Positions 3,061 to 51,793 of a stretch of DNA of 53,045 nucleotides are shown piece after piece. The stretch is from NCBI GenBank assembly GCA_020072655.1, contig JAIQGH010000015.1, positions 1-53,045 on the forward strand, given 5' to 3'. This DNA comes from Terriglobia bacterium (GTDB lineage: Bacteria; Acidobacteriota; Terriglobia; UBA7540). Numbering within the stretch: position 1 is the stretch's first letter; each line of letters opens with the position of its first letter. Position numbers and translations under genes: made by a program. The notes under the pieces were generated by a model, which was not told the origin of the DNA, searched no databases, and saw only the letters and a program-made list of their open reading frames with translations.

Positions 3061-3924
3061 TCATATTTTCCTTCGTCCATAAACGGAGTGTGCGAGTTCT
3101 ATCACGTCGCCAAGATCGATCGTGACGATGTGGGGCACGCGGCCGGAGGCTCCAGGATTGACGACCACGCTCGAGCCGATGCGGTCCGAGAACGATCCGG
3201 ACATCTTTGGGCTCTCGTGGATGTGTCCGTGGAGCGTGAGCAAGGGCTGAGTGCGTTCGATCCAATGTCGGATGGCCCGGCTGCCGATATGCTCGCCGCC
3301 GTAGAGCACGTCGCATCGCGTGTTGTAGGGCGGCGAATGCAGCACGGCGATAGTCCGACTGGCCTCAGTCGCGGGGAGCCGCGCGAGCTCGTCTTCGATA
3401 CTGGGCAGGGATTTCAGATAGGAATCGAAGTCCGCGATGATCTGAAAGCCTTGTTCGGTGGCGAGGACCGAGCGCGCCGCCTGCCTTTCGAAGGGCCTTC
3501 CCTCCGGCCCATCGCGGCGCTCAAAATCCTTGAACGAGAATGGCGTCGGAGGGACGAACGCCAGACCCACCAGGGAATACGGCCCCAGCCGCGCTGAACT
3601 CTGGTGGAGGTTCTCGACGAGGCCGACAGATTCGAGCTCGCGCAGGGCCGCGAGAATGGTTCCGCAATCGTCGTTGCCGGGAATGGCAAAGACTCGCAAC
3701 GCCGGCCGGTCCCTTCTCCACGATTTGACCAACGGAGCAACGTCGTCCAGCAGGAACAGGGGTTGCGAGTGGGGGAGAGCAACGGCCGAGGCGCTGGGTG
3801 TGCCCGGACACAAATCCCCACCGAGCACGATGGCGTCCGCCTCGCATCGACAAGCGGCCTCACCGGTCGCGCGATACAACGCCATGTCGCCGTGTAAGTC
3901 CGAGCTGTAAACCAGACGGGTCAT
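3061..3924 (-). CDS. Calcineurin-like metallophosphoesterase
   Basis: A 287-residue protein with the complete metallophosphoesterase metal-ligand set in order: SDLHG (8-12), GGDL (35-38), GNDD in place of the more common GNHD (about 81-84), HSPPY (about 195-199) and HGHIHE (about 232-237). These residues hold two metal ions in a calcineurin-like fold. There is no signal peptide or membrane segment, so it should be cytoplasmic. The substrate cannot be told from sequence; relatives hydrolyse phosphomonoesters, phosphodiesters or nucleotides. It is convergent with argH and not part of the arginine operon. Replacement of His by Asp in the GNHD box is a notable variation and might shift activity toward diesters, but that is inference. 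Confidence 0.85.
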   Translation of the reverse strand: MTRLVYSSDLHGDMALYRATGEAACRCEADAIVLGGDLCPGTPSASAVALPHSQPLFLLDDVAPLVKSWRRDRPALRVFAIPGNDDCGTILAALRELESVGLVENLHQSSARLGPYSLVGLAFVPPTPFSFKDFERRDGPEGRPFERQAARSVLATEQGFQIIADFDSYLKSLPSIEDELARLPATEASRTIAVLHSPPYNTRCDVLYGGEHIGSRAIRHWIERTQPLLTLHGHIHESPKMSGSFSDRIGSSVVVNPGASGRVPHIVTIDLGDVIELAHSVYGRRKI

Positions 3925-4055
3925 GCGTCACCTTCCCTGGCGGCGATTGTAGCGTGCCGCAAGAGAGACGCAAGCCTGGAGATCAATGCGGACAGGGCGA
4001 GTCGCGCCTCCCGCCCAACCATAGGTGGCAGTTGGGAAAGGGGGAAGCAAGCTGC

Positions 4056-4589
4056 TCAGGTAGAAGGCGGCGCGTCCACCGATTCCAAAGCTCGGGAGGT
4101 GGACGTCCGCCTGGAGAGACTGGGGATCCACCCGAACGGCGGGACCAGCCGATGGTAAGGGCCGAAAAATCTGACCACCAGGAACGCGTATCCGAGCACC
4201 AGGTGAAACCGCAGCATGAGTCGCAGGAACTCCCAGCTTCCGGGAGGCTTGAGCAAGCCCCGACCGGCCGGCACGGGGCCGGGCGTCTGCAACAGCTTCT
4301 CAAATGATCTGCGGACTGCGCGCAGCCAGGCCAAGGCCATTTGGGCGCGACTGCGGCGCAGGCCTTTGGCGAGAGCCGGGAAGCCCGCTTCGTCCCGCAG
4401 CCAGAGGTAGTCGGTGCGGTCGAAGACTCGTTCGGCGAGGATCAAATCCGCGGGGCTCCACAGAGCCGCATCCCACTTCTGTTCGTCGCGGGAAGATTCC
4501 GGGGCCGGACGCTGCGCCCGGCGCACCAGCCACAGCACGACGACGACCGTCAGCAAGGCAATGATCGTATACGCTTCGAGTTGAATCAT
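4056..4589 (-). CDS. Hypothetical membrane-anchored protein
   Basis: 177 residues, not assigned to a known family. Residues about 5-23 form one clear hydrophobic helix (IIALLTVVVVLWLV), followed by a basic, then Asp/Trp-rich cytoplasmic-looking stretch. A moderately hydrophobic segment near residues 125-140 (MLRFHLVLGYAFLVVRFFG) could be a second membrane helix. Its ATG overlaps the TGA of the upstream membrane-protein gene (ATGA), so the two are translated as a pair and probably act together. The start is fixed by that overlap. No catalytic motif is visible. Nothing in the sequence allows a functional call beyond a membrane-associated partner of its neighbour. Confidence 0.6.
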   Translation of the reverse strand: MIQLEAYTIIALLTVVVVLWLVRRAQRPAPESSRDEQKWDAALWSPADLILAERVFDRTDYLWLRDEAGFPALAKGLRRSRAQMALAWLRAVRRSFEKLLQTPGPVPAGRGLLKPPGSWEFLRLMLRFHLVLGYAFLVVRFFGPYHRLVPPFGWIPSLSRRTSTSRALESVDAPPST

Positions 4590-5359
4590 CTGCCGAGTAG
4601 CCTAAACAGAACGCTATTGAACTTCTCAAGCTGATAGGCGACAGCCTCCGCGGAAGCGTCTCCGCGGCGAGCCGCCTCAAGTCGTTCCTCCGGGACAGGG
4701 TCTAACCGCCAAAGGGAGGCCGCCCAGATCGTTAGACTGAGCACGTAGCCCAGCGGTCCCACCGCGGCGAACACGCGGCCGTAAAGAGCCTGGCCATATC
4801 TTTCCTCGAGCGCCAGGTTCACGACGACGATTGCCAGATAGACAGAAAAGCCCAGAAGGATGCCGGAGGTATTTCGGCCCAAGTGAATGTGGAAGCGAAC
4901 GATCGCCGCCAATAAGACAACGATGATGATGGCTTTTGTAAAGGCTACCCGCTTGTTGAATTCCAGAATGACTGCCGCCTGTCCCTCTTGCGACACAAGC
5001 GATGGGTAGATGTAAAACACCGCGAATACGATGCAAATTCCCAGAGTCAATAGCTTGCCCAGGTGGCAAATGGCGACGTAGCGGCTGAAAATGTGATCCG
5101 AGACTTCCAACAACACCATGAACTCGAGGAGAAGTTGGATGGTGAATCGGAACCAGAAGGCGGAGGGATAATAGCTCGGCCAGAGAAGGTAAATGGGAAG
5201 CAGGATCCCTGAAGTGAGAAACAAGAACGCGATGTAAGCATAGAAGGATGGGAACTGGCTAAGATTCTTCGTCTGCCAAGCCCGTACCAACAGGACGGCC
5301 TCGAACAGCGAAGCATAGATCCAAATGATGGCGGCGAAATGATCCACGGACTCAGCCAT
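4586..5359 (-). CDS. Hypothetical polytopic membrane protein
   Basis: 257 residues from the chosen ATG, with about seven hydrophobic helices: IIWIYASLFEAVLL at the N-terminus, FYAYIAFLFLTSGILL, a helix around IQLLLEFMVLLEV, LGICIVFAVFYIY, AIIIVVLLAAIV, GFSVYLAIVVVNLAL and GYVLSLTIWAASLW. It ends in a charged cytoplasmic tail (about 35 residues). I do not recognise the family. The frame stays open upstream to 5521, but the extra N-terminus there is poorly hydrophobic and overlaps a separate short ORF with an excellent ribosome site, so the start at MAESVDHF is preferred, although its own Shine-Dalgarno is weak. It is coupled by a 4-base overlap to the following small membrane protein. Confidence 0.6.
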   Translation of the reverse strand: MAESVDHFAAIIWIYASLFEAVLLVRAWQTKNLSQFPSFYAYIAFLFLTSGILLPIYLLWPSYYPSAFWFRFTIQLLLEFMVLLEVSDHIFSRYVAICHLGKLLTLGICIVFAVFYIYPSLVSQEGQAAVILEFNKRVAFTKAIIIVVLLAAIVRFHIHLGRNTSGILLGFSVYLAIVVVNLALEERYGQALYGRVFAAVGPLGYVLSLTIWAASLWRLDPVPEERLEAARRGDASAEAVAYQLEKFNSVLFRLLGR

Positions 5360-22772: not shown

Positions 22773-23906
22773 GTGAGACAAGCCTTGCGGTTCTCTCCTT
22801 CCGGATTCCATCGCATTCTCGTTGTCATTCTGGGGGTGTTCCTCGTTGGCATGACATCGAACCGGCGCGCGCAGAGCCAGGAAAGTGAGCCCGCGCGACC
22901 GAGACCTACTGACTCCAGCAACGGACGGTTGGGCCCTGACGACTTGCGGGTCGCCCCGGCCGTTCAGCGTATCGAGGGAACGTCGGCCGCAGCGGCGCTC
23001 CCGGATTCCGCGCCTCAGCAGGAGCCGCTCGGGGGCAACTACATTATTGGCCCCGAGGATGTGCTTGATATTGATGTCTTCAACGTTCCCGAACTTGCCA
23101 AGTCCGTCCGAGTGGCGAATGACGGGACGATCGTGCTGTCGCTGATCGGGCGGGTTAAGGCGGCGGGCCTGACTTCCGAGCAACTTCGCGAAGAGCTCGA
23201 GACGCGCTACCGTGAAACCTATCTCCAGAACCCCCAAATTAGCGTCTTTATCAAGGAATTCCATGCCCAGCCGGTCTCCATCATCGGCGCCGTGGAGAGG
23301 CCAGGCCTTTATCAGCTCACCGGCCCGCGCAGCCTGATCGAAATGCTCGCCATGGCGGGGGGGCTGGCTAAGAAGCAAAGCGCGCCTGCCGGGCGAACAC
23401 TTTTCGTCACCCGCAAGGGGGGCTTTGAGGACGCGCCGTTGGCTGAGGGGATGAACCTTGTAGCCCCGGACAAGCTGGAGATCAATATCCAGCGCCTGCT
23501 CTACTCGCGTGAGGGCGCCCTCAACATTCCGATCCGCCCTGCCGACACAATCAGCGTGACCAAGGCCGACATCGTCTATGTGGTGGGATCCGTCAGGAAG
23601 CCCGGGGGATTTGTTCTGGAAGATCGAGAAAAAGTGACTGTCCTGCAGGCTTTGGCCATGGCGGAAGGTCTGTTTGGGAGCCCGTCCAAGAACTCGGCGC
23701 GAATCATCCATAGGGCCGAAGACGGGGGGCGGTCTGAGACCCCAGTTGACATCGGCAAGGTCATGAAAGGCCGGGCGCCCGACATCGAGTTGGCGCCCAA
23801 CGACATCCTCTTTATTCCCGAGAGCGGTGGCAAAATGGCTGCGAAACGAGGCGCCGAAGCTGCCATCGCAACGATAACCGGCGTCATCATCTGGCGCCGT
23901 CCGTAG
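22773..23906 (+). CDS. Polysaccharide export protein (Wza-like, SLBB domains)
   Basis: 377 residues. A hydrophobic segment near residues 14-28 (ILVVILGVFLVGMT) is a Sec signal without an evident lipobox cysteine. Then the export domain NYIIGPEDVLDIDVFNVPEL, and at least two SLBB beta-grasp repeats: VSIIGAVERPGLYQLTGPRS and VYVVGSVRKPGGFVLEDREK. The final residues AAIATITGVIIWRRP form an amphipathic helix with Trp, comparable in position to the outer-membrane helix of E. coli Wza. It would form the channel for export of the polymer. GTG 22773 has GAGGTAG upstream. First gene of a ~15.6 kb plus-strand operon; a paralogue sits at 44443-45471. Confidence 0.9.
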   Translation: MRQALRFSPSGFHRILVVILGVFLVGMTSNRRAQSQESEPARPRPTDSSNGRLGPDDLRVAPAVQRIEGTSAAAALPDSAPQQEPLGGNYIIGPEDVLDIDVFNVPELAKSVRVANDGTIVLSLIGRVKAAGLTSEQLREELETRYRETYLQNPQISVFIKEFHAQPVSIIGAVERPGLYQLTGPRSLIEMLAMAGGLAKKQSAPAGRTLFVTRKGGFEDAPLAEGMNLVAPDKLEINIQRLLYSREGALNIPIRPADTISVTKADIVYVVGSVRKPGGFVLEDREKVTVLQALAMAEGLFGSPSKNSARIIHRAEDGGRSETPVDIGKVMKGRAPDIELAPNDILFIPESGGKMAAKRGAEAAIATITGVIIWRRP

Positions 23907-23940
23907 CGGACGACCAGCCGGCTCTCCTCCGCGGAGCTTA

Positions 23941-26253
23941 ATGGAAGAAAACGAATTTCGACATCCCGAAACCACTCAGAGCCTGGCGAAGGCAGAAACC
24001 CAGGCCATTCATGAGCAAGTCGTCCTGGACGCCTCTCCAGAGGAAATCTGGCAGCTGCCTGATTACTGGCGCATCATCGTCAAGCGGCGCTGGGTAGTCC
24101 TGACCTGCCTCCTGGTTGTCTTTTCCACCATAGCGATTGGAACCTTGAAGCAGAAGGCCATTTACCAGGGCAAAGTCGTGGTGGAGATCAACCCGGAGCA
24201 ACCGAACGTCCTGAACTTCAAAGAGGTCCTGCAGGTCAGCACGGTGGACGTGGATAGCTACCGCGAGACGCAGTACAAGATTCTGCAGAGCCGCACGCTG
24301 GCCGAGCGCGTCACGCAGACGCTGCAACTCTATAAGAGCCCAGAGTTCTATCAAAACCGTTGGCCCTTCGGGTTAATCGAGACTGACCCGGCTAAGATTC
24401 CTTCGGCCTCCGACCCCGGCCCGCCGGATACCTCTGCGGACTACTATCGCAACAGCGTGAAGCACTTCCTGGACGCGGTGGATATAGCTCCGGTGAGGCG
24501 CAGCAATCTTGTTGAGGTGTCGTTCTATTCCGAAGACCCCAGGGTCGCCGCTCGCGTTGCGAACCAGCTTGCGGCGGACTACATCGACCAGAACCTGCAG
24601 GTGAAGTGGGACGAAACCGTTAAGGCTTCGGAGTGGCTTCAGGACCAGCTCGTGGGCCTCAAGGCCAAGCTCGAGAAGTCCGAAGACTCTTTGCAGGCCT
24701 ACGCCCAAGCCAATTCCATCCTCTTCGTGGAGGAGAAGAAAAACCTGGTGAATGAACGCTTGGCGCAACTGCAGGAAGCCTATACCAAAGCGCAAGCGGA
24801 CAGATTCCAGAAAGAGTCCTCGTACAGCTTGGTGCAGGCCGGCAAAGTTCAGGACTTGCCCGGGTTCCTTTCAAACCGGTTGATTCAGGATTTGTCGGTT
24901 CGCCTCTCCGAACTCGAGCGTGACTACTCTCAATTGACGGCGACGGTGAAGCCCGACTACCCGAAGGCAGTGGCACTCAAGAGAGAAATCGACACCGTGC
25001 AGTTGGCGCTGGATCGCCAAAAGGGAGCCCTGGCCCAGAACATTGTCGATGAGTATCGGTCAGCAGTCGCCAATGAGAAGTACTTGGCCGGGGCGCTTGA
25101 GCAGCAGAAGAAGGAAGTCAATGAGATCGCCGAGAAGTCCATCCAATATAACATCCTGAAGCGTGAAGTGGACACCAGCAAGCAACTCTACGAGGGCTTG
25201 CTCCAGCGACTTAAGGAGGCCCAAGTTTCGGCGGGACTGAAGGCTAGCAACATCCGCATTGTAGACGCGGCCGAGGTGCCGAAGCGCCCCGTAAAGCCTC
25301 GCGTGGTTTTGAACCTGGCCCTGGGCGTGATTCTGGGGCTGGGGTTGGGTATGGGGCTGGCGTTCTTCCAGGAGTATCTGGACAACACGCTCAAAACCCC
25401 CGATGAGGTGGAAACCCTGCTGCGGCTACCTTCGCTGGGCGTGGTTCCGGTCTTTTCCTTGGACGGCGCTGACAAGGCCGCGGAGGAGAAGCTGGTCTCC
25501 ATTGCCCCGGGCATGGACAAGCCCATCGGCCCGGCGATTCAAACCAATCCTGCCGCCGTGGAAGCTTTCCGCTCCCTCCGCACGTCGATCTTGCTCTCTG
25601 CCAATCCCGTGCCAAAGATCCTCCTGATTACCAGCGCCCTCCCTGGGGAAGGGAAAACCACCGTCGCAGCGAATTTGGGAGCTACCTTGGCCAGCTTGGG
25701 CAGTAAGGTTTTGATCCTGGATTGCGACATGCGGCGACCAGCCTGCCACCGCGCGACGGGCGTGAAGAACAGCCCGGGGTTTGTCCAATGCCTGACGGGT
25801 CACGCTGAGCTGGGGGAGGCCGTATTGCCCGTGCCGGGGGTGGAGAACCTGAGTGTCATCCCCTGTGGCCCCATTCCTCCCAACCCGGCAGAGGTTCTTT
25901 CCTCTACGCTCGCGGGTGAGTTGCTGCGGAGACTTCGTGGGGAGTTTGAGTATGTCCTGGTAGATTCTCCGCCCTTGTTGAGCGTTGCCGATAGCCGCAT
26001 CCTTGTCACGTTGACGGATGCGGTGGTCTTGGTCGTGCGGGCTTATGAGACGCCCTATGATGTGGTTCGTCGGGCCCGCTCGTTGCTCTACGGTGCCGGG
26101 GCACGCATCTTGGGGGTCGCGCTGAATGACGTGGACATCCGCAAGGACGGCTACGCGTACAACTACTATTACCGTTATGGGCATGGGTACGGGTATGGGT
26201 ATGAACCCGGCACACGCACTGAGGGGAAAACTGCGCACCACGAAGAGACTTAG
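23941..26253 (+). CDS. Polysaccharide co-polymerase and tyrosine autokinase (Wzc-like)
   Basis: 770 residues, the usual BY-kinase layout. Basic N-terminus, first membrane helix near 55-75 (WVVLTCLLVVFSTIAIG), Wzz chain-length domain, long periplasmic coiled coil to about 440, and proline-rich second helix VKPRVVLNLALGVILGLGLG near 450. The cytoplasmic kinase follows: Walker A ALPGEGKTT (about 564-572), Walker A' LILDCDMRRP (about 592-601), Walker B LVDSPP (about 673). A tyrosine/glycine-rich tail lies at about 735-757 (YNYYYRYGHGYGYGYEP), the expected site of autophosphorylation. It controls chain length and export by pairing with the Wza-like protein directly upstream. A second full-length paralogue is at 42106-44397. 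Confidence 0.93.
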   Translation: MEENEFRHPETTQSLAKAETQAIHEQVVLDASPEEIWQLPDYWRIIVKRRWVVLTCLLVVFSTIAIGTLKQKAIYQGKVVVEINPEQPNVLNFKEVLQVSTVDVDSYRETQYKILQSRTLAERVTQTLQLYKSPEFYQNRWPFGLIETDPAKIPSASDPGPPDTSADYYRNSVKHFLDAVDIAPVRRSNLVEVSFYSEDPRVAARVANQLAADYIDQNLQVKWDETVKASEWLQDQLVGLKAKLEKSEDSLQAYAQANSILFVEEKKNLVNERLAQLQEAYTKAQADRFQKESSYSLVQAGKVQDLPGFLSNRLIQDLSVRLSELERDYSQLTATVKPDYPKAVALKREIDTVQLALDRQKGALAQNIVDEYRSAVANEKYLAGALEQQKKEVNEIAEKSIQYNILKREVDTSKQLYEGLLQRLKEAQVSAGLKASNIRIVDAAEVPKRPVKPRVVLNLALGVILGLGLGMGLAFFQEYLDNTLKTPDEVETLLRLPSLGVVPVFSLDGADKAAEEKLVSIAPGMDKPIGPAIQTNPAAVEAFRSLRTSILLSANPVPKILLITSALPGEGKTTVAANLGATLASLGSKVLILDCDMRRPACHRATGVKNSPGFVQCLTGHAELGEAVLPVPGVENLSVIPCGPIPPNPAEVLSSTLAGELLRRLRGEFEYVLVDSPPLLSVADSRILVTLTDAVVLVVRAYETPYDVVRRARSLLYGAGARILGVALNDVDIRKDGYAYNYYYRYGHGYGYGYEPGTRTEGKTAHHEET

Positions 26254-38480: not shown

Positions 38481-39254
38481 TTATCGGGTCGGGCTTACCG
38501 TTCCACCGCCGCCGCCCCCCCCTCCACCTGCCAGTGCCGCCGCGGCCCCAGCTAGGCCGCCGCCCGCTACCGCCGCTACGACGGCAACCGAGGCTCCGGG
38601 GGACATCGTACCGATATGCCAGGGAGGCTTGGGCGGAGGCGCCGACACGGGTGGACTGGGTTGGTCGGGCGCCGGCCTGCTCTCCTCCTTTTCCTGGCCT
38701 GGAGTCGCGGGGACGCCCACTGCCGCGGCTGAGAGGGAGGCATACTTGCCTTCTTGAAGCTCGTACCGCAGGCCAGAAGCTTTTTCCGTAATCAGCACAT
38801 TCCCAAATCTCGCCGCCACTGTGGTCGATCGGTCAGGAAGCAGCGCCACCAGGTAGAGGGATTTCCCGCTCTCTGTGGGCTCGACGCGGTACTTCGGCGT
38901 TTCGACGCGAAGGGCGGCGCGTTCCTGCTTCAGAGTGATCACCGTCCCAGAGTCAAGATTGGCGACCAGGTGCCCCGCCGTATTCCGGAATCGCACTTGG
39001 GTTTCCTCACCTACGGCGGTGCGAACGCTGCCGGCGAAGTCCACGACCGCCCGGCCATCCTTCTCGGTGCGCACGAGGTCGTTGTCCAGCAGCGTGCCTT
39101 CAGCCGGCAGGGGAACGTCGCCCACCGAAGCTTTTGAGCAAACAATAACGTGGCCGAGCACGGGGGCCCCGCCCGGCAAGGCCATTCCTCCTCCCACGGC
39201 AAGTTGCATGGCCAGCACCGTTGAAATGATGACCTTTCCAATCGCTCTTGGCAT
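38481..39254 (-). CDS. FecR-domain protein with polyglycine C-terminus
   Basis: 257 residues from ATG 39254, with GGAGG seven bases upstream; the longer open frame is not coding. N-terminal signal/anchor (IGKVIISTVLAMQLAVGGGM), then a FecR-like beta domain about 35-160: GTLLDNDLVRTEKDGRAVVD, VRTAVGEETQVRFRN, then HLVANLDSGTVI. A Pro/Ala linker (RPAPDQPSPPVSAPPPK) and a hydrophobic Gly/Ala segment VAVVAAVAGGGLAGAAAA follow. The tail is nine glycines in a row followed by TVSPTR. The glycine tract is encoded partly by a run of eight G. The protein is probably exported, with its C-terminal segment in or near a membrane. Whether the SPTR end is a sorting signal is unknown. Confidence 0.7.
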   Translation of the reverse strand: MPRAIGKVIISTVLAMQLAVGGGMALPGGAPVLGHVIVCSKASVGDVPLPAEGTLLDNDLVRTEKDGRAVVDFAGSVRTAVGEETQVRFRNTAGHLVANLDSGTVITLKQERAALRVETPKYRVEPTESGKSLYLVALLPDRSTTVAARFGNVLITEKASGLRYELQEGKYASLSAAAVGVPATPGQEKEESRPAPDQPSPPVSAPPPKPPWHIGTMSPGASVAVVAAVAGGGLAGAAAALAGGGGGGGGGTVSPTR

Positions 39255-39360: not shown

Positions 39361-40672
39361 TTATTGCACTCCGCGTGATGACCTTTCCCCAGCAGGCCAT
39401 GCCTCCCGAGTACTGGCTGATGAACAGCGGGAAGCGACTGGCTGGGTGGCAATCGCCGCGCAAACCGCGAACCACGCGGCATTGGCAGGTATATGAAGAT
39501 TGAAATCACCCACACTATGAACGAGAAGCCCGCAGCACCCGGCAGCCGCGCCCAACTGGATCCAACCGACCTCGTTCGCCAGTCGTTCGCCAAGCCGACC
39601 GAATGCCAGGCGGGAAAACATGGCGAGCGCCGCTGCGATCAGGATCCCCCCCACCGCTCCCGTTTCCGCAAGCGCTTCGGCATAGTCGTTGTGGGCGTGA
39701 TCCCACAGCAAATCCGTGGCAAAACTTTGATACCGGGGATAGGCAACCGCAAAACTCCCCAGCCCAACGCCCATCCAGGGATGATCCGCAATGATGCGGA
39801 TCGAATCACGACTCACGAGCCATCGCTCCGCGAAGGTTGCTTCGGGGTGGGTGGAGATCTCGGCCACAGTCGCCAGTCGTTTCGCCACCTGGCCCGGATC
39901 GATTAGGAAGAACAATGCCGCCGAGGCCGCCCCCCCTAGCACAATCGGCGCCCACAGGGAGAGGGCTTTTCCGCGGGGCCGACCCCGGGCGAGGATCGCG
40001 CCCAGGATCACGGTCTCAGCGAGCAGGGCGAGGAAGCCGCCTCTCGACCCGGAAAGCCGCCGCAATCGGGATCAGCATCTCCATCAGGCCGGGGTAATGA
40101 TTGCGGTTCGCGTAAGGGCCGAACGGGGACATCGAAGCCGTTTGGACTTCCCAATAAATCAGCCCCCCGCTTGAGAAGTACTGGATGATGGCGAGCACGG
40201 ATAACGCGAACATGAATACGGTGACCACTGCCACGAATCGTCGCCAGGCTGACTTGGTGGCTTCGCTGAAAACCTGCACCGCCGCGAAGAACAGCAGAAC
40301 ATCTGTCGCCAACTTAATGAGGGCCTCTCGCGACGAAATCCTGTCCATGTTGTGGCCCGAGTAGAATTGAACCGCCGCCAGAGTAAGGAAGAAGGTGCAG
40401 GGCAAATAAAGCGGAGACCACGCGATCTTCACACGACGGCCTTTGACCTGTTGCCTTCCCCAAAGAATCAGCAAAACGACGGCAAGCACCGCCAACCCGC
40501 CCCACGCCCAGGGCAGCACTCCGCCGAGAGGCAGCGGAGCAGCCAGAAGACCGGCCAACAGAACGACTCGCACAGAGGTACTATTCCCTGGGTTAACTCG
40601 AGCCGCTTGAATCCCGGCTGGAAGCTCGTGACGAATTTCAATTGTGTTTAGAGCGCTTGTCATTGCATGCAA
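39361..40672 (-). pseudogene. O-antigen ligase family gene, frameshifted with internal deletion
   Basis: Two overlapping frames make one gene. The first (40672 down to about 40040) starts MHAMTSALNTIEIRHELPAG, has five to six membrane helices and reaches YANRNHYPGLMEMLIPIAAA before ending at TGA. The second continues with SGSRGGFLALLAETVILGAI, DHAHNDYAEALAETGAVGGI and HSVGDFNLHIPANAAW, ending at 39361. In the intact relative at 48197-49588 the two parts are joined by more sequence, so a deletion plus frame change near 40040-40060 has broken the gene. The periplasmic HxxNDY loop and the helices otherwise look like a ligase/polymerase of the WaaL type. It overlaps the TPR gene by 13 bases. Confidence 0.8.
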
Positions 40673-42066
40673 ACCTGGCGTGTCGAATCCATTCCGCTGT
40701 GCGGCCCTGTGACGACCAGGGAAACAGCGTCAAGCCAGAATCGTCCGGAGATTTCCATCGGGAATACGCGGCTCCGCGCACGCCACACGGCAAGCCGGAC
40801 CAGGCGGGTGTCACGCCCAGCGGAGAACGTCAACCCGACGGGGTGCCAGTCGGTTGTGCCAAGCACCGGCGGGGTTGAGATATTCAGGCGTTCCGGTGAC
40901 TCGGCATCGACAATCCTCAGGCGTGGGCCGCTGTCAGAAGTAATGCCTTCGGACCGGACGAAGGCCTCAAGCCGGTATTCGCGGCACGGCTCGACCGGAA
41001 CCAACTGATAAAGAATTTCATATTCCTCGTTGTGCTTTACGGTGAAGTCGACTCGAGCCGATTTCGCGCCATGGAACGCTGCGGGCGCCTGAGAATCCGT
41101 GACAACGAAAGGCATCTGCGTGAGGCGCCAATCGAAACCCGCGTTGAGCGGAGCTTGCTCAAGGTCCCCATTAAAGACTGCATTGTCGGGACTAGGCGAG
41201 GTAGGACGCGCGATAACCTGCCATTTCAGCAGGTCCCTCCAGACTGAAATCGCCTCATTCACGCGGTTACCTGCAATCAGTCCGTCGATATAAGGCTGCA
41301 CGGTGGGAAACGTGATTTTGGTTTTTGACGCCTTCGATTCGAATTGTCGCCACATTTTGAAAGCGTCATCGTATTCGCCGCACCGGCGGAGGAAGTCAAC
41401 ATAGGCCAGCACCAGCCCCGGCGAAGCATCGAGCGGCATGACATGTTCTGAAACCAGGCGAAAATCACCCGCAGCCCGGAGGCAAAGCCGAAAGACGGGT
41501 TCGGAACGGGTTGGGCTCAGTTCGAGCACGCGTCGAAAATGGTTCCATGCGGCCTCGTTTTGCCCGGCACGCAAGTAGAAGTTCCCGGCTCTCCACCAAT
41601 AGTCGGGGCTCATGGGGCGCCGTTCGAGGGCGTGGTGGAAGGCGTCCTGCGCTGCGCGGGTTTCTCCCCTGCTCTCCAGGGCGGCAGCCACTCCCAGCCA
41701 GTATGGGCCGCTGTTCGGACTCAACTCGGCAGCCTTGCGCAGATGTTCGATCGCCATTGCCGAATCTGCTTTCTCCAAAGAAAACAACTGCAGGACCCCG
41801 AGCCGGAAGTGCAGCGCAGGGTGAGATGGGTCGAGTCCAATGGCTCTTACAAGCCATAGGCTGTTTTCGGAATTAGCAAGCGTTTCTGCGGCTGCGGCTT
41901 TTCCACCAATGTAGAGCAGCGGCAGGCCCGCGAGCGCTAGCGCCGCCAGGAAGACGCACGCATCAATCTTTGTCTTCAGCTCAAACTCTATGCCGGCTGG
42001 TGAGAACACTCGAATGAGGCGGCGCCTGGCAGCTGACGAAAACTCTTTTACAGTCTCGAACTTCAC
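40660..42066 (-). CDS. Membrane-anchored TPR protein with jelly-roll C-terminus
   Basis: 468 residues. A basic N-terminus and a single helix at about 35-53 (ACVFLAALALAGLPLLYIGG) anchor it in the inner membrane. Tetratricopeptide repeats run from about 65 to 200 (DPSHPALHFRLGVLQLFSL, AELSPNSGPYWLGVAAALES, RPMSPDYWWRAGNFYLRAG). From about 302 a beta-sandwich of carbohydrate-binding type begins: NGDLEQAPLNAGFDWRL, ITSDSGPRLRI, WLDAVSL. The soluble parts should face the periplasm. It overlaps the broken O-antigen ligase by 13 bases and follows the Wzc-like gene. The paralogue at 49630-50934 also neighbours a ligase, so a supporting role in ligation or polymerisation is plausible, but it is inference. 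Confidence 0.75.
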   Translation of the reverse strand: MKFETVKEFSSAARRRLIRVFSPAGIEFELKTKIDACVFLAALALAGLPLLYIGGKAAAAETLANSENSLWLVRAIGLDPSHPALHFRLGVLQLFSLEKADSAMAIEHLRKAAELSPNSGPYWLGVAAALESRGETRAAQDAFHHALERRPMSPDYWWRAGNFYLRAGQNEAAWNHFRRVLELSPTRSEPVFRLCLRAAGDFRLVSEHVMPLDASPGLVLAYVDFLRRCGEYDDAFKMWRQFESKASKTKITFPTVQPYIDGLIAGNRVNEAISVWRDLLKWQVIARPTSPSPDNAVFNGDLEQAPLNAGFDWRLTQMPFVVTDSQAPAAFHGAKSARVDFTVKHNEEYEILYQLVPVEPCREYRLEAFVRSEGITSDSGPRLRIVDAESPERLNISTPPVLGTTDWHPVGLTFSAGRDTRLVRLAVWRARSRVFPMEISGRFWLDAVSLVVTGPHSGMDSTRQVCMQ

Positions 42067-42105: not shown

Positions 42106-44397
42106 CTATATTTGAGGGTGCGCACCATTGTTCCCCCCGCCATTCGACGGTGGGACCAGCGCCGAAACCTCGTCTTCCTCGTAGTGTTCGTAGTACCCCG
42201 AATCGTAGGAACCGTAATAGTAGGAGTCTGTGTTGCGAGAGTTAGCACGGTTCAGAACCACGCCCATGATTTTCGCGCCCGCACTTTCCAGTGTCTTGTG
42301 GGCGCGGGTAAGGGCGGTGCGGGTCGTAATCCCGAGTTGAGCGACCATAATCGTGGCGTCAACGAGCGTCGAGAGAATCGTTGCATCCGTCACCAGCAGG
42401 GATGGAGGGGAATCCACGATGACGTGGTCGAATCTGCGCCGCAAGCGGCGCAGCAACTCCTCCATACAGGACGAGGAAAGCAAGTCGGCGGGGTTGGGAG
42501 GGCGCGGGCCGGCGGCCAAAACGGACAGGTTGGGCAGCCCCTCGACTTGAGAAAGTGATTCGTCGAGGCTGCTGGTGCCAGTCAGAACACTGCTCAGGCC
42601 CTTGTCCCCTGTCAAGCCCAGCGGGCGGGCGATGCCTGGCTTGCGCAAATCTGCATCCACCAGCAGCACGCGGGCGCCGCGCTGGGCCAGCGCGAAGGTA
42701 AGATTCAAAGCGGTGCAGGTCTTGCCTTCTGCGGGCTGCGGACTGGTGACGAGGAGCACCTGCGGCGGGCGGGGCGCCATCGACAGCAGTACGGCGGTGC
42801 GAAGTGAGCGATAACACTCCGCCACCAGCGAAGTGGGCTGGTGTAACACGGCCAATTCCACGTGCCCGTTTGGCGAAGGCTTCGATCCATTCTGTTTCAA
42901 GCTCCGGGCTGGGCGAGTGCCGTTTAAGGGAGCCTCGGGTATGATCGCGAGCGCCGGGCATGCCGTGAGCCTTTCCACGTCGTCGGCACTCTTCACCGAG
43001 GTGTCAAGCTCCTCTTGCATGAACACCAGCGCGATCCCCAGAATCAGTCCGGCGATCAGTCCGACAATGATGTTCAAGAGCTTCTTGGGGCGGGCGGGAA
43101 TCGAGGGCGGCAAGGCTGGATCCACAATGTGGATGTTCGTGGCCCGCAGGCCGGAGGACACCGTCGCATCCTTCAGCCGCTGCAACAGGCTTTCGTAGAG
43201 TTGCTGATTGGTTTCGAATTCGCGCTTGAGGATATTGTGTTGGATCAAGAGCTGATTGAGTTTGCCGACTTCCGCCTTTTCCGCAGTCACAGCCTCTTCC
43301 AGTAATCTCTGCCGACCCTGTGCGGCCGTGTAATCGTCGCAGATTCTGCTGACCACCCGCTTCCGCTCGCGATCGATCAGGGATTGCATTTCGTTCACCT
43401 GATCGCGCAGTCGTACAACTTTGGGGAAGTTAGGCCCGTACTGGCCCAGGGCATCAACGTACCCGGACTTGAGATCAGCCTGCTTTTCTTCCAGCCGCTG
43501 CAGGAGTTGGTTCTGGGCAAGCAAAGCCGCCTGGTTCTCGTTGGTGCGGACCAGTTCGTAAAGAGATTCCTTCTCCAGGCGGTCGCTCTGGGCAACGGTC
43601 AGATCGCGCGTAAGGTCCGCCAGCCTCTGCTCCGCCACATTTTGCTTGTCGCCGACATTGACAATCGACGATTGCCGCTCATAATCGACCAGAGCCTGCT
43701 GCGATTCTTCGACTTTGGCCTTCAGCTCGTCCAGTTGCTGTTCCATCCAGCCAGACACCTGCCGGGTGGCGTCGTACTTTTTCCGGAAGTTATACTCGAT
43801 GTAATTGTTGATCAGATTATTCACGACCTGCGCCGCGAGCTGTGAATCGGTGCTCTCGAAGCTCACTTCGATGAGGCGACTGCGGGCCACGCGGTTGACC
43901 GTTAAATCACCGTCGAAAGCTTTGATCTGGTTGGTCTCGAGTGCGAGGCGAGGATCACCGCTTTTGCGGTCCGGGGGATGTACATTGCGCGAGAACGCCA
44001 GATTATCTCCCAGCCGAAGCTGCTGGATCGTGCGCCAGGCCAGTTGATCGCTCTGGATGACCTTGACCTGTGTTTCGACGAACAGTTCATCGGTAGGAAG
44101 GGTTCGGTCGAAATCACTGAGCGACTGGATGGTGGGGGTCTCGGTTTCGATCTCGACGCGCCCTACTGCCCGGTAAACGGGCTCCATCTTGAACGAGATG
44201 ACCGTGACGAGCGTCGTGACCACGATGAGCACGGTCAGCACTGGCCCGCGGCGCTTGCGAAGAACATTCCAGTAAGCTCGCAGGTAGGCGTAGCCATCCG
44301 ACCTCTCAGGTTCGATCGCAACCGCCGCACTGCTCCTGTACGTCGGCGCTAAGGGGTCACGAGGTTCGATAGGCACGATTTCTGAGTTGTCAGACAT
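42106..44397 (-). CDS. Polysaccharide co-polymerase and tyrosine autokinase (Wzc-like), second copy
   Basis: 763 residues, same architecture as the 23941-26253 protein. First membrane helix near residues 55-70 (GPVLTVLIVVTTLVTVI), Wzz domain, coiled coil to about 430, second helix after PARPKKLLNIIVGLIAGLIL. Kinase motifs: Walker A QPAEGKTC (about 555-562), Walker A' LLVDADLRKP, Walker B VIVDSPPSLL. The C-terminal tail is tyrosine-rich (TDSYYYGSYDSGYYEHY) followed by an acidic and asparagine-rich end. All residues needed for activity are present, so it should phosphorylate its own tail. It lies between the Wza-like gene (45 bases upstream) and the TPR gene and forms a second export unit. Confidence 0.93.
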   Translation of the reverse strand: MSDNSEIVPIEPRDPLAPTYRSSAAVAIEPERSDGYAYLRAYWNVLRKRRGPVLTVLIVVTTLVTVISFKMEPVYRAVGRVEIETETPTIQSLSDFDRTLPTDELFVETQVKVIQSDQLAWRTIQQLRLGDNLAFSRNVHPPDRKSGDPRLALETNQIKAFDGDLTVNRVARSRLIEVSFESTDSQLAAQVVNNLINNYIEYNFRKKYDATRQVSGWMEQQLDELKAKVEESQQALVDYERQSSIVNVGDKQNVAEQRLADLTRDLTVAQSDRLEKESLYELVRTNENQAALLAQNQLLQRLEEKQADLKSGYVDALGQYGPNFPKVVRLRDQVNEMQSLIDRERKRVVSRICDDYTAAQGRQRLLEEAVTAEKAEVGKLNQLLIQHNILKREFETNQQLYESLLQRLKDATVSSGLRATNIHIVDPALPPSIPARPKKLLNIIVGLIAGLILGIALVFMQEELDTSVKSADDVERLTACPALAIIPEAPLNGTRPARSLKQNGSKPSPNGHVELAVLHQPTSLVAECYRSLRTAVLLSMAPRPPQVLLVTSPQPAEGKTCTALNLTFALAQRGARVLLVDADLRKPGIARPLGLTGDKGLSSVLTGTSSLDESLSQVEGLPNLSVLAAGPRPPNPADLLSSSCMEELLRRLRRRFDHVIVDSPPSLLVTDATILSTLVDATIMVAQLGITTRTALTRAHKTLESAGAKIMGVVLNRANSRNTDSYYYGSYDSGYYEHYEEDEVSALVPPSNGGGNNGAHPQI

Positions 44398-44442
44398 GCG
44401 TTCAGCTCGCTAACTTCTGCCGGCACGACTCGTCCTGGCAGA

Positions 44443-45471
44443 CTAACGGTGCCAGATGATGATTCCGGTGGTTGCCTGCACCGCCGCTTCCGCGAGGCGG
44501 CTCAACGCCTTCTGGCCCGGGCTGTCGGGAACGAAAAGAATATCGCCTGGCTGCATCGAGGGGTCGAGCGCGCGGCGCGCGAGAACCTTTTTCAGATCTA
44601 CGGGAATCTCTTCGTGGCCTTCCGGAGAACGCGGATTCTTTCGAATGATGACCGCCTTGCCGCGAATCGCCGTGGACTTCAGATCCTGCGCCAGCGCCAC
44701 GGCCTTGAGCACCGTGATGTCTTCATGATCATCGCTCATCGGAAACCCGCCGGGGCGGTTCACCGCGCCGACTACATAGATGACTCCGGCACGCTGGACC
44801 GTGACCCGGTCGCCGGGGTAGATCTCCACATTGAGCGCGGGGTCACCGGTTTCCATCAGACCCTTCAGGTCCACGGCCGTGGTCCGAAGCGCGGGATCCG
44901 CTGTTTGCTCGCCTCCCGCAGAAGGCTGCAACAGGAGCCGGCGCAGGGCAATCTCCCCTCGCGTGATGATGACGGTGTTTCCCGCTTCCGGTGCCAAGCC
45001 TTCCGCCTGAGAAAGAACATCCAGCAGAGTGGTCCGACCGAAAACCTGGTAGATTTGTGGTTTCTTGACAGCGCCCGTGACCGCGACGGAGTGCAATCGT
45101 GATTCCTTCACTTCCACATTGACCTGCGGGTTGCTCAGTATTCCCGCGCTGCGCAGTTCTGTGGCGATAGCTTCTGAAAGCTGCACGGGCGTCATGCCCG
45201 CTGCCTCGATGGGCTTCGGCAGCAGTGGGAACACAATGAATCCACTCGGGCTGACTCTATACGGGCGCGACATCTGGGGAACGTCGAAAACAACAATTTC
45301 CAGCAGATCATCGGGTGTGATCAAGAAGTCGGAGTTGGCCGAAACGGCATTTGCGCCTGTATTGGAGAGAGTGCCGCCGGTAGGCTTCACGGCTGCGCCT
45401 TGGTCTGAGGCAGCATGGAGATTCAGTGCCAAAATCACTCCGGCAATCCAAAACATGCGTCGCATACTCAT
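44443..45471 (-). CDS. Polysaccharide export protein (Wza-like), second copy
   Basis: 342 residues from ATG 45471 (MSMRRMFWIAGVILALNLHA), which gives a signal peptide of about 20 residues; the longer open frame is low-complexity arginine-rich readthrough and is not coding. SDFLITPDDLLEIVVFDVPQ is the export domain; the SLBB repeats are HSVAVTGAVKKPQIYQVFGR and VIYVVGAVNRPGGFPMSDDH. The C-terminus AAVQATTGIIIWHR matches the end of the 22773-23906 protein in pattern (A-A-x-x-A-T, then GIIIW and a basic end). It is paired with the Wzc-like gene 45 bases downstream. No lipobox cysteine is visible. It follows the PilZ gene by 113 bases. Confidence 0.9.
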   Translation of the reverse strand: MSMRRMFWIAGVILALNLHAASDQGAAVKPTGGTLSNTGANAVSANSDFLITPDDLLEIVVFDVPQMSRPYRVSPSGFIVFPLLPKPIEAAGMTPVQLSEAIATELRSAGILSNPQVNVEVKESRLHSVAVTGAVKKPQIYQVFGRTTLLDVLSQAEGLAPEAGNTVIITRGEIALRRLLLQPSAGGEQTADPALRTTAVDLKGLMETGDPALNVEIYPGDRVTVQRAGVIYVVGAVNRPGGFPMSDDHEDITVLKAVALAQDLKSTAIRGKAVIIRKNPRSPEGHEEIPVDLKKVLARRALDPSMQPGDILFVPDSPGQKALSRLAEAAVQATTGIIIWHR

Positions 45472-45584
45472 CCTGCCATTCGAATGTCCATGGCCATTGC
45501 GCTGGAGAGGGTCAGCCGAGCGCCGACCCGTTCCTCCGCCCAGCCGCGGCAAATATCTCTTGGCGTACATTCTCCGCCTTGTGC

Positions 45585-45983
45585 TTAAGAAGCGCCTCCG
45601 CCTCCGTTGCCGTTTCTCGAAGGCGATGCCGTCGGCCGCAGAGTGAGAAGCTCTCCCATATCTTGCCGGAGAATCCGGCCACTGCGCCGGAACTGCACCG
45701 CCACCTCGTAAACGGGCTGGTCGTCCGCCCGTTGCACGATGCCCTCGAACTGCACGGTCGTAACCTTCTGCTTCGCGTCGCGGAAGTGGGCGTGCAGCAC
45801 GACCCGTGAACCTTCTGCCAGATGTTGTCCCACTTGCAGCCTGGCGCCGCCCATTCCGATGTCGAGCAAGTGACCGGGAACCAGTGACCCGACGCGTCCA
45901 CGGCTGGATATCTTGAGCATAACGGGACAACCAATCCTTAACCGCTTCCACTCCCGCTTTTCATCAGCTTTTGAAGAACCCAT
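45585..45983 (-). CDS. PilZ-domain protein
   Basis: 132 residues from ATG 45983 (MGSSKADEKREWKRLRIGCP); the open frame further upstream lacks coding character. The c-di-GMP-binding PilZ pattern is visible: REWKR supplies RxxxR and DIGMGG the D/NxSxxG position, with Gly in place of Ser. Remaining strands VQFEGIVQRADDQPVYEVAV and the basic, glycine-rich tail fit a single PilZ beta barrel. It should bind c-di-GMP and relay it to a partner. It is first in a minus-strand unit with the second Wza/Wzc pair, which suggests control of export by c-di-GMP. Affinity may be altered by the Ser to Gly change. Confidence 0.75.
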   Translation of the reverse strand: MGSSKADEKREWKRLRIGCPVMLKISSRGRVGSLVPGHLLDIGMGGARLQVGQHLAEGSRVVLHAHFRDAKQKVTTVQFEGIVQRADDQPVYEVAVQFRRSGRILRQDMGELLTLRPTASPSRNGNGGGGAS

Positions 45984-51064: not shown

Positions 51065-51793
51065 TCAATTGATCCACCGCCCCCGGTCGTCCCGGCGCTC
51101 GTGGTTGCGCATGAAAGTCTCGAATTTGCGACGCAGCCGGGCTCGCCGCCAATCGTGATACCGAAGCTGCAGGTGGAAGGGCAAACCGGCGCCGCGCAGG
51201 TAAAGGAAGCCCACCAGCATTCCGCCCAGGTGGGCGACGTGGCTGACACTGGATCCCGGCGTCTGAAATGAGCTGACGAATTCAATCAGGCCCATCACCA
51301 GCACGAACCATTTTGCCTTGACTGGGATCAGCATCCAGAGGTAGATGGGCCGATTGGGAAACAAGAGGCCATAGGCGAGGAGGACGCCGTACACCGCGCC
51401 GGAATTGCCGATGGTCGTCGTGATGGCGGCAGGTTGCAGGAGAACGTCGAAGACGCCGGCGCCGACGCCCGTCAAGAAGAAGTAGGTCAGAAAGCGCCGC
51501 GAGCCCCACGTACGCTCGAGGTCGGCCCCGAACATCCAGAGCGCAAACAAGTTGAAGATGATGTGGAAGAAACCGGCATGCAGAAACAGGTACGTAACCG
51601 GTTGCCACAAATAGAGTCGATGCGTGACAAAATAAGGCCGGAGACCGAACACCTGGTAGGGAAGCACAAAGCCGAAAATCTGCGCGGGAAGATACGTTAG
51701 CAGGAAGATCGCCGACGTGATGATGATGAGATAGCGCACCATCCACGTCAGCGGCGGGCCGAACGATACTTGCACGTCGCGATAACGGGGCAT
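51065..51793 (-). CDS. Rhomboid family intramembrane serine protease
   Basis: 242 residues from ATG 51793 (MPRYRDVQVSFGPPLTWM); the open frame extends into a repeat upstream and is not coding. Six membrane helices. The rhomboid marks are WQPVTYLFLHAGFFHIIFNL in the first active-site region, WG..RFLTYFFLTG, GNSGAVYGVLLAY with the catalytic serine in GxSx, and SHVAHLGGMLVGFL with the catalytic histidine. The Ser-His dyad is intact. It cleaves membrane-spanning substrates within the inner membrane. The C-terminal tail is basic and arginine-rich (LRYHDWRRARLRRKFE). Lies 130 bases from the TPR gene start and is not obviously part of the glycan units. Confidence 0.85.
   Translation of the reverse strand: MPRYRDVQVSFGPPLTWMVRYLIIITSAIFLLTYLPAQIFGFVLPYQVFGLRPYFVTHRLYLWQPVTYLFLHAGFFHIIFNLFALWMFGADLERTWGSRRFLTYFFLTGVGAGVFDVLLQPAAITTTIGNSGAVYGVLLAYGLLFPNRPIYLWMLIPVKAKWFVLVMGLIEFVSSFQTPGSSVSHVAHLGGMLVGFLYLRGAGLPFHLQLRYHDWRRARLRRKFETFMRNHERRDDRGRWIN

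Follow-up and report, generated by a model that had tools for sequence, protein, structure and literature searches.

A conserved Ser-Pro tail behind a C-terminal hydrophobic segment on two families of predicted exported proteins in Acidobacteriota

Sortase, exosortase, rhombosortase, and myxosortase systems were all discovered by way of C-terminal tags on exported proteins. Does the unusual end of a small FecR-like protein from an acidobacterial genome point to another addressing system of this kind? The gene lies on a 53,045-nt stretch of Terriglobia bacterium DNA (contig JAIQGH010000015.1), which we analyzed as a whole and refer to as the window. A preliminary description had noted a Gly/Ala-rich hydrophobic segment, nine consecutive glycines, and the end TVSPTR, and had suggested that a short motif at the extreme C-terminus could be a sorting or processing tag.

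A FecR-fold protein with a Ser-Pro end

The gene is a minus-strand open reading frame of 257 codons and a stop, and the plus-strand frame across 38481-39254 is broken by stops (Table 1). The protein ends in ...VAVVAAVAGGGLAGAAAALAGGGGGGGGGTVSPTR, with the three elements of the tail present as described. Gene calls came from a simple hexamer script and not from a standard caller, and the signal-like N-terminus was assigned from the sequence and a modelled helix only.

Against the Pfam FecR family (PF04773) the protein scored 19.8 bits, under the 24-bit cut-off, and a sequence search of the PDB returned weak, unrelated matches only. An AlphaFold model (mean pLDDT 69) reached ∼89 over residues 31-174, with low confidence in the C-terminal helix. 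It matched PupR (6ovk_R; Z 16.2, rmsd 2.3, 137 residues aligned) and a second FecR-type anti-sigma regulator (4m0h_A; Z 15.9, rmsd 2.6, 139 aligned); the next structure, a cell-surface anchoring domain (5ix9), came in at only Z 5.4. The FecR label given in the preliminary description is correct at the level of the modelled fold, despite the sub-cut-off Pfam score. A two-domain relative (L063, 8952-10451) showed a weak likeness to the LapA retention module (NF033682, 29.6 bits, cut-off 50).

FecR-type anti-sigma regulators begin with an anti-sigma domain in the cytoplasm, and a transmembrane helix comes next. The window protein shares the fold of their periplasmic domain (Z ∼16) but differs in layout: the cytoplasmic anti-sigma domain is absent, a signal-like stretch directly precedes the beta domain, and the helix is C-terminal, whereas theirs is N-terminal.

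Table 1. Coordinates of the SP-tailed gene, its parts, and its polysaccharide-type neighbors in the window
Feature	Position	Strand	Basis or remark
SP-tailed FecR-like protein gene, 257 aa	38481..39254	-	ORF, Pfam, tail-free profile, AlphaFold model
Signal-peptide-like N-terminus, residues 1-27	39174..39254	-	Basic start, hydrophobic stretch; modelled helix 3-20
FecR-fold beta domain, residues 31-174	38733..39164	-	AlphaFold model, structure matches
Pro-rich linker, residues 176-211	38622..38729	-	Sequence, model; low model confidence
WHIGTMS, residues 212-218	38601..38621	-	W[HR][IV]G[ST][LM]S kept in closest relatives only
Hydrophobic Ala/Gly segment, residues 220-242	38529..38597	-	Alignment, tail-free profile
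Nine-glycine linker, residues 243-251	38502..38528	-	Length and sequence both variable
TVSPTR C-terminal tag, residues 252-257	38484..38501	-	Ser-Pro conserved phylum-wide
Wzy_C / O-antigen ligase-like gene	39361..40672	-	Two overlapping frames, 39361-40065 and 40016-40672
TPR protein	40660..42066	-	Neighbor annotation
Wzc-type polysaccharide co-polymerase / BY-kinase	42106..44397	-	Neighbor annotation
Wza-type polysaccharide export protein (Poly_export, SLBB)	44443..45570	-	Neighbor annotation

A tail shared by two families

Twenty-one of the 61 related genomes, that of the window among them, encoded relatives of the window protein, although counts of relatives lean towards tailed proteins because search profiles A2 and A7 held tail columns. 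Their ends read VSPSTP, ASPSMP, ASPSSP, VSPTVP, ASPSQP, ESPSRP, VSPVTPGP, and the like, with some relatives lacking such an end, and their bodies were ∼19%-40% identical to the window protein, the closest relative excepted. S254 and P255 were two of only four invariant columns in a 15-row full-length alignment with rows picked for the tail, and Ser-Pro was invariant in the tail alignments A1 and A6, whose rows were picked for having SP. A profile of the beta domain only, run on all ORFs of the fetched loci, retrieved 68 distinct members, 53 of them with a C-terminal hydrophobic segment. SP lay within the last six residues of 47 of these 53 Acidobacteriota relatives (33 of 38 with the 15 training rows removed, by hand count) and of none of the 15 relatives without the segment (0/15), showing that tail and segment are coupled. 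An end of SP plus four or fewer residues was present in 31 of 43 family members, against eight of the 524 other genes called in the fetched loci.

The segment-less FecR-like paralogues (L011, L017, L070 10842-11696, L135 9810-10751, and L136 3404-5299, the last two from the window's own genome) carry long Ala/Thr/Asn-rich ends or another, Cys-containing end (PSPYIPPTGFTCP, ELSPIFPSCQQ).

Fifty FecR-type proteins carried SP among their last 12 residues, and their 44 distinct tails had V before the serine in 23 cases and A in six, S or T after the proline in 23, and a final P in 25 or R in 15. In a 77%-identical orthologue, GGGGEGG plus a two-residue gap takes the place of the nine glycines, and VSPTR is kept with zero amino-acid and three synonymous changes across its five codons. 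Judged from these alignments, the glycine run is a variable linker, and Ser-Pro is the conserved part of the tail. We ruled out a DNA-level element at the gene end because proline codons (33 CCG, nine CCC, eight CCT, one CCA), stop codons, and downstream bases all vary.

From 41 genomes and 662 random genes we had at first concluded that the tail was limited to the FecR family, a view reversed by a broader profile (A6; 26 tails, 199 Acidobacteriota genomes), which found the helix and SP end also on proteins unmatched by the FecR profile. Ten of 11 such proteins were scanned, and all 10 matched Pfam CarboxypepD_reg, six above the cut-off. A tail-free CarboxypepD_reg profile collected 49 small proteins, 47 of them with a C-terminal hydrophobic segment, and SP lay in the last nine residues of 33 of these 47 (23 of 37 with training rows removed, by hand count). 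The other 14 of the 47 had different endings, several of which were near-variants such as SSSTP and SNSTP. The tail common to both folds is [VA]SP[ST]x(P/R)-COOH behind a hydrophobic segment.

Serine codons set the two families apart. AGY encodes the tail serine in 45 of 51 FecR-type tails, compared with 385 of 1182 other serine codons in the same genes, and in 16 of 33 CarboxypepD-type tails. Because of this difference (45/51 vs. 16/33), the codons fit one ancient tail in the FecR family and separate, independent origins in the CarboxypepD family, with codon turnover as an alternative.

Background frequencies were low. Of 622 random genes, 25 had SP among their last nine residues; the corresponding count for random genes with a C-terminal hydrophobic segment was four of 68, and those four include the window protein. 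A random draw of 662 genes across three genomes contained 12 that ended in SP plus four or fewer residues, and only the window protein was a small exported-type protein with the helix and tail layout; this draw gave no sign of a general tag spread over many proteins of each genome. A class search gave 18 rows that combined SP with a hydrophobic end; 16 of these were FecR-like, and the remaining two were an Ig-type protein (L314) and an apparent non-gene (L325). The enrichment at C-termini of exported proteins on which the preliminary description had staked its reading is therefore present (47/53 and 33/47 tailed vs. 25/622), since the motif is conserved, its carriers have signal-like N-termini, and two folds share it. 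The SP tail is a shared tag on predicted exported proteins, in line with that first guess.

Our tail searches covered Acidobacteriota genomes and one plasmid collection, and phylum-wide conservation is meant within that scope; the plasmid collection yielded no relatives. Pfam and NCBIfam scans returned no model for the tail and no NCBIfam match for the window protein, and we found no account of such a tail in the literature searched, which lay mostly outside subscription journals.

Tagged genes in polysaccharide loci

In the window, the genes run Wza-Wzc-TPR-Wzy_C-FecR, all on the minus strand, and the orthologue's contig likewise has the order Wzc, TPR, Wzy, FecR. A polysaccharide-type gene was present within five genes in 24 of 31 FecR-type loci, compared with two of 35 random windows (Fisher 1e-9). 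A locus entered this count when one of its family members had SP followed by eight or fewer final residues; the 31 loci are partly related and include the loci of the seed genes. The other seven of the 31 had no polysaccharide-type neighbor. Around the members of family f30, sugar-nucleotide genes stood alongside housekeeping genes, and export genes were absent.

The CarboxypepD-type genes were found in similar company. They adjoin Wzc in two genomes (G121 and G116), BBP2_2 porins in two more (G226 and G078, the latter also having Wzy_C nearby), and in another (G235) a UDP-sugar dehydrogenase homologue. Others stand beside different genes, for example, a GGDEF regulator or a peptidase. We found no neighbor common to every locus. 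A Pfam summary of the neighbors (73 aligned proteins, nearly all from 101 listed neighbors) had no sigma factor among its 25 commonest families listed.

Several features of these loci are worth recording. The window holds two separate Wza and Wzc pairs (22773-26253 on the plus strand and 42106-45570 on the minus strand), and a PilZ-domain gene (45585-45920, minus strand) lies directly upstream of the second Wza gene, a possible sign of cyclic-di-GMP control of the locus. The split of the Wzy_C gene may reflect a frameshift or an assembly error, its relative in L059 being a single frame (3456-4799). In one family of the phylum, SP-tailed FecR-like genes occur as tandem pairs (L138 4016-5388, L139 8815-10178, and L154 8795-10170), which adjoin UDP-glucose/GDP-mannose dehydrogenase and epimerase genes.

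Possible roles of the tail

The explanation that we favor, tentatively and at a little under even chances, is that the window protein is a tethered accessory subunit of a polysaccharide system with an uncleaved C-terminal docking tag. It would serve Wzx/Wzy-type polysaccharide assembly and export. The N-terminal signal sequence would export the protein, the FecR-fold domain would act in the periplasm, and the C-terminal hydrophobic helix would tether it to a membrane. Behind the helix, a flexible linker (nine glycines here) would present the docking tag, [VA]-S-P-[ST]-x-(P/R)-COOH, which would stay on the protein and bind a polysaccharide-machinery partner common to Acidobacteriota. The same tag would also serve the small exported proteins of the unrelated CarboxypepD_reg family.

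A different reading takes the helix and SP tail as a processed sorting signal, which a membrane peptidase or transpeptidase would remove while attaching the domain elsewhere, as exosortase and rhombosortase are thought to do. The occurrence of the tail on two unrelated exported folds would suit such a signal, and so would the linkage to polysaccharide loci, PEP-CTERM being tied to exopolysaccharide genes in the available text of its description (PMC1569441). The build of the tail argues against it. As far as the available text of three reports goes, known C-terminal sorting signals consist of a motif, a helix, and a basic cluster, in that order (PMC3237569, PMC11980579, PMC1569441), with GlyGly-CTERM and MYXO-CTERM having a Gly or Cys motif ahead of the helix and Arg/Lys behind it (PMC3237569, PMC11980579).

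Comparison with each system bears this out. The tag shares with PEP-CTERM/exosortase (EpsH) a short one-helix C-terminal region, exported carriers, and exopolysaccharide genes, but its SP motif stands behind the helix at the very end, a basic cluster is absent, exosortase is absent from many SP-tagged genomes, and SP-tagged proteins are few per genome. GlyGly-CTERM/rhombosortase and MYXO-CTERM/myxosortase likewise combine a C-terminal tag and one hydrophobic helix on unrelated exported proteins. Unlike in GlyGly-CTERM, however, the Gly run of the window protein is a variable linker behind the helix and the end is not basic, and unlike in MYXO-CTERM, where an invariant Cys precedes the helix and the end is Arg-rich, the tail has neither a Cys nor a basic cluster (one terminal Arg). 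LPXTG/sortase signals are also short, C-terminal, and on exported proteins, whereas the window protein has no LPXTG-like motif ahead of its helix and many tagged genomes have no sortase. In build the tag is unlike LPXTG, PEP-CTERM, GlyGly-CTERM, and MYXO-CTERM, because its SP motif follows the helix and it has no terminal basic cluster; for the first two, this had already been noticed in the preliminary description.

The distribution of candidate enzymes points the same way. Of 199 genomes, 68 had an exosortase (PF09721) match and 37 a sortase (PF04203) match. Exosortase was missing from seven of 21 FecR-type and 17 of 23 CarboxypepD-type tagged genomes, sortase was missing from most of the FecR-type ones, and 19 of the 44 tagged genomes (21 plus 23, by hand count) had a match to neither. 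The window's own genome, which carries an exosortase, a sortase, and a rhomboid, would accommodate a processed signal. The rhomboid gene in the window (51065-51793, minus strand) lies 12 kb from the tagged gene and scored 42.3 bits against the rhombosortase model (TIGR03902, cut-off 84); apart from it, no exosortase or rhomboid homologue was found in 41 loci. We rejected exosortase and sortase as partners and, as far as these 41 loci and the window's rhomboid go, a rhomboid too, with no match to the tag in distribution or neighborhood, and we consider a processed signal unlikely. The earlier idea of a sorting or processing tag thus survives in one half: the extreme C-terminal motif is conserved, on two folds with signal-like N-termini, whereas the linked peptidase gene that it called for was absent from the commonest neighbor families listed. 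M20 and M42 peptidases, which are soluble types, lie beside two loci and are not recurrent.

The charge around the segment raises the possibility of an alpha-helix that spans or lines the outer membrane, with the SP tail exposed at the cell surface. Wza has such a C-terminal alpha-helix in the outer membrane, and the likeness extends to a polysaccharide locus and a short end behind the helix; the domain is different. Mean net charge changed from +0.8 ahead of the segment to -0.04 behind it among 50 FecR-type proteins, and from +1.6 to -1.7 among 33 CarboxypepD-type proteins. Taken at face value, these calculated charges are at odds with a simple helix whose tail lies in the cytoplasm, the residues behind the CarboxypepD-type segment being acidic, not basic. 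A helix in the outer membrane would also agree with the Gly/Ala-rich composition, with GxxxG and small-residue spacing in 23 of 50 FecR-type segments, and with the position of the genes beside Wza/Wzc and BBP2_2 porins. Several segments are nevertheless hydrophobic enough for an inner-membrane stop (mean hydropathy up to ∼2.5) and the C-terminal helix is modelled at low confidence, making this placement rather improbable in our view.

We give still less credence to a cytoplasmic, regulatory tail, perhaps modified at Ser/Thr, in a protein resembling a FecR anti-sigma regulator turned end to end, with the FecR domain sensing polysaccharide traffic in the periplasm and the tail signaling inside the cell. 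The fold equals the cell-surface-signaling domain of PupR, and Ser/Thr follows the proline in about half of the distinct FecR-type tails. That residue is not invariant, however, the cytoplasmic part would span only ∼10-25 residues, the C-terminal side of the CarboxypepD-type proteins is acidic, and sigma factors are missing from the commonest neighbor families listed. Least probable of all is a functionless tail inherited neutrally inside one protein family, for which the relatedness of the members, counts inflated by profiles with tail columns, and the mostly AGY serine codon of the FecR family, as from a single origin, might speak, but S-P is kept while bodies fall to ∼20%-40% identity, proline codons vary freely, relatives without the hydrophobic segment are also without the tail, and a second fold carries the tail with mixed serine codons.

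We therefore return to the uncleaved docking tag, favored because the motif comes last, the charges bear no cytoplasmic mark, 19 of the 44 tagged genomes have neither an exosortase nor a sortase match, and no exosortase or rhomboid is linked. A bolder proposal, possible but on balance doubtful, is that Acidobacteriota have an addressing system of their own for envelope proteins of polysaccharide secretion, in which a helix followed by SP[ST]x(P/R)-COOH was gained at least twice, by unrelated beta domains, and is read, outside the cytoplasm, by a receptor or peptidase. If true, its layout would be inverted relative to all C-terminal sorting signals compared here. A phylum-wide tag with another layout, on two folds and in polysaccharide loci of a major soil phylum, points to a new receptor or enzyme, and the SP tag offers a concrete handle for finding it.

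Finally, small Ig-type exported proteins (L307, L326, L327, L319, L314, and L092) also have a hydrophobic segment and a linker, followed by another short conserved end (PTISIGKP, PTITVGKP, PLITIGKP, TVGSPTVGGPQ) that is possibly a second tail type. Judging from these ITIGKP-like ends, several such tails may be in use in Acidobacteriota.
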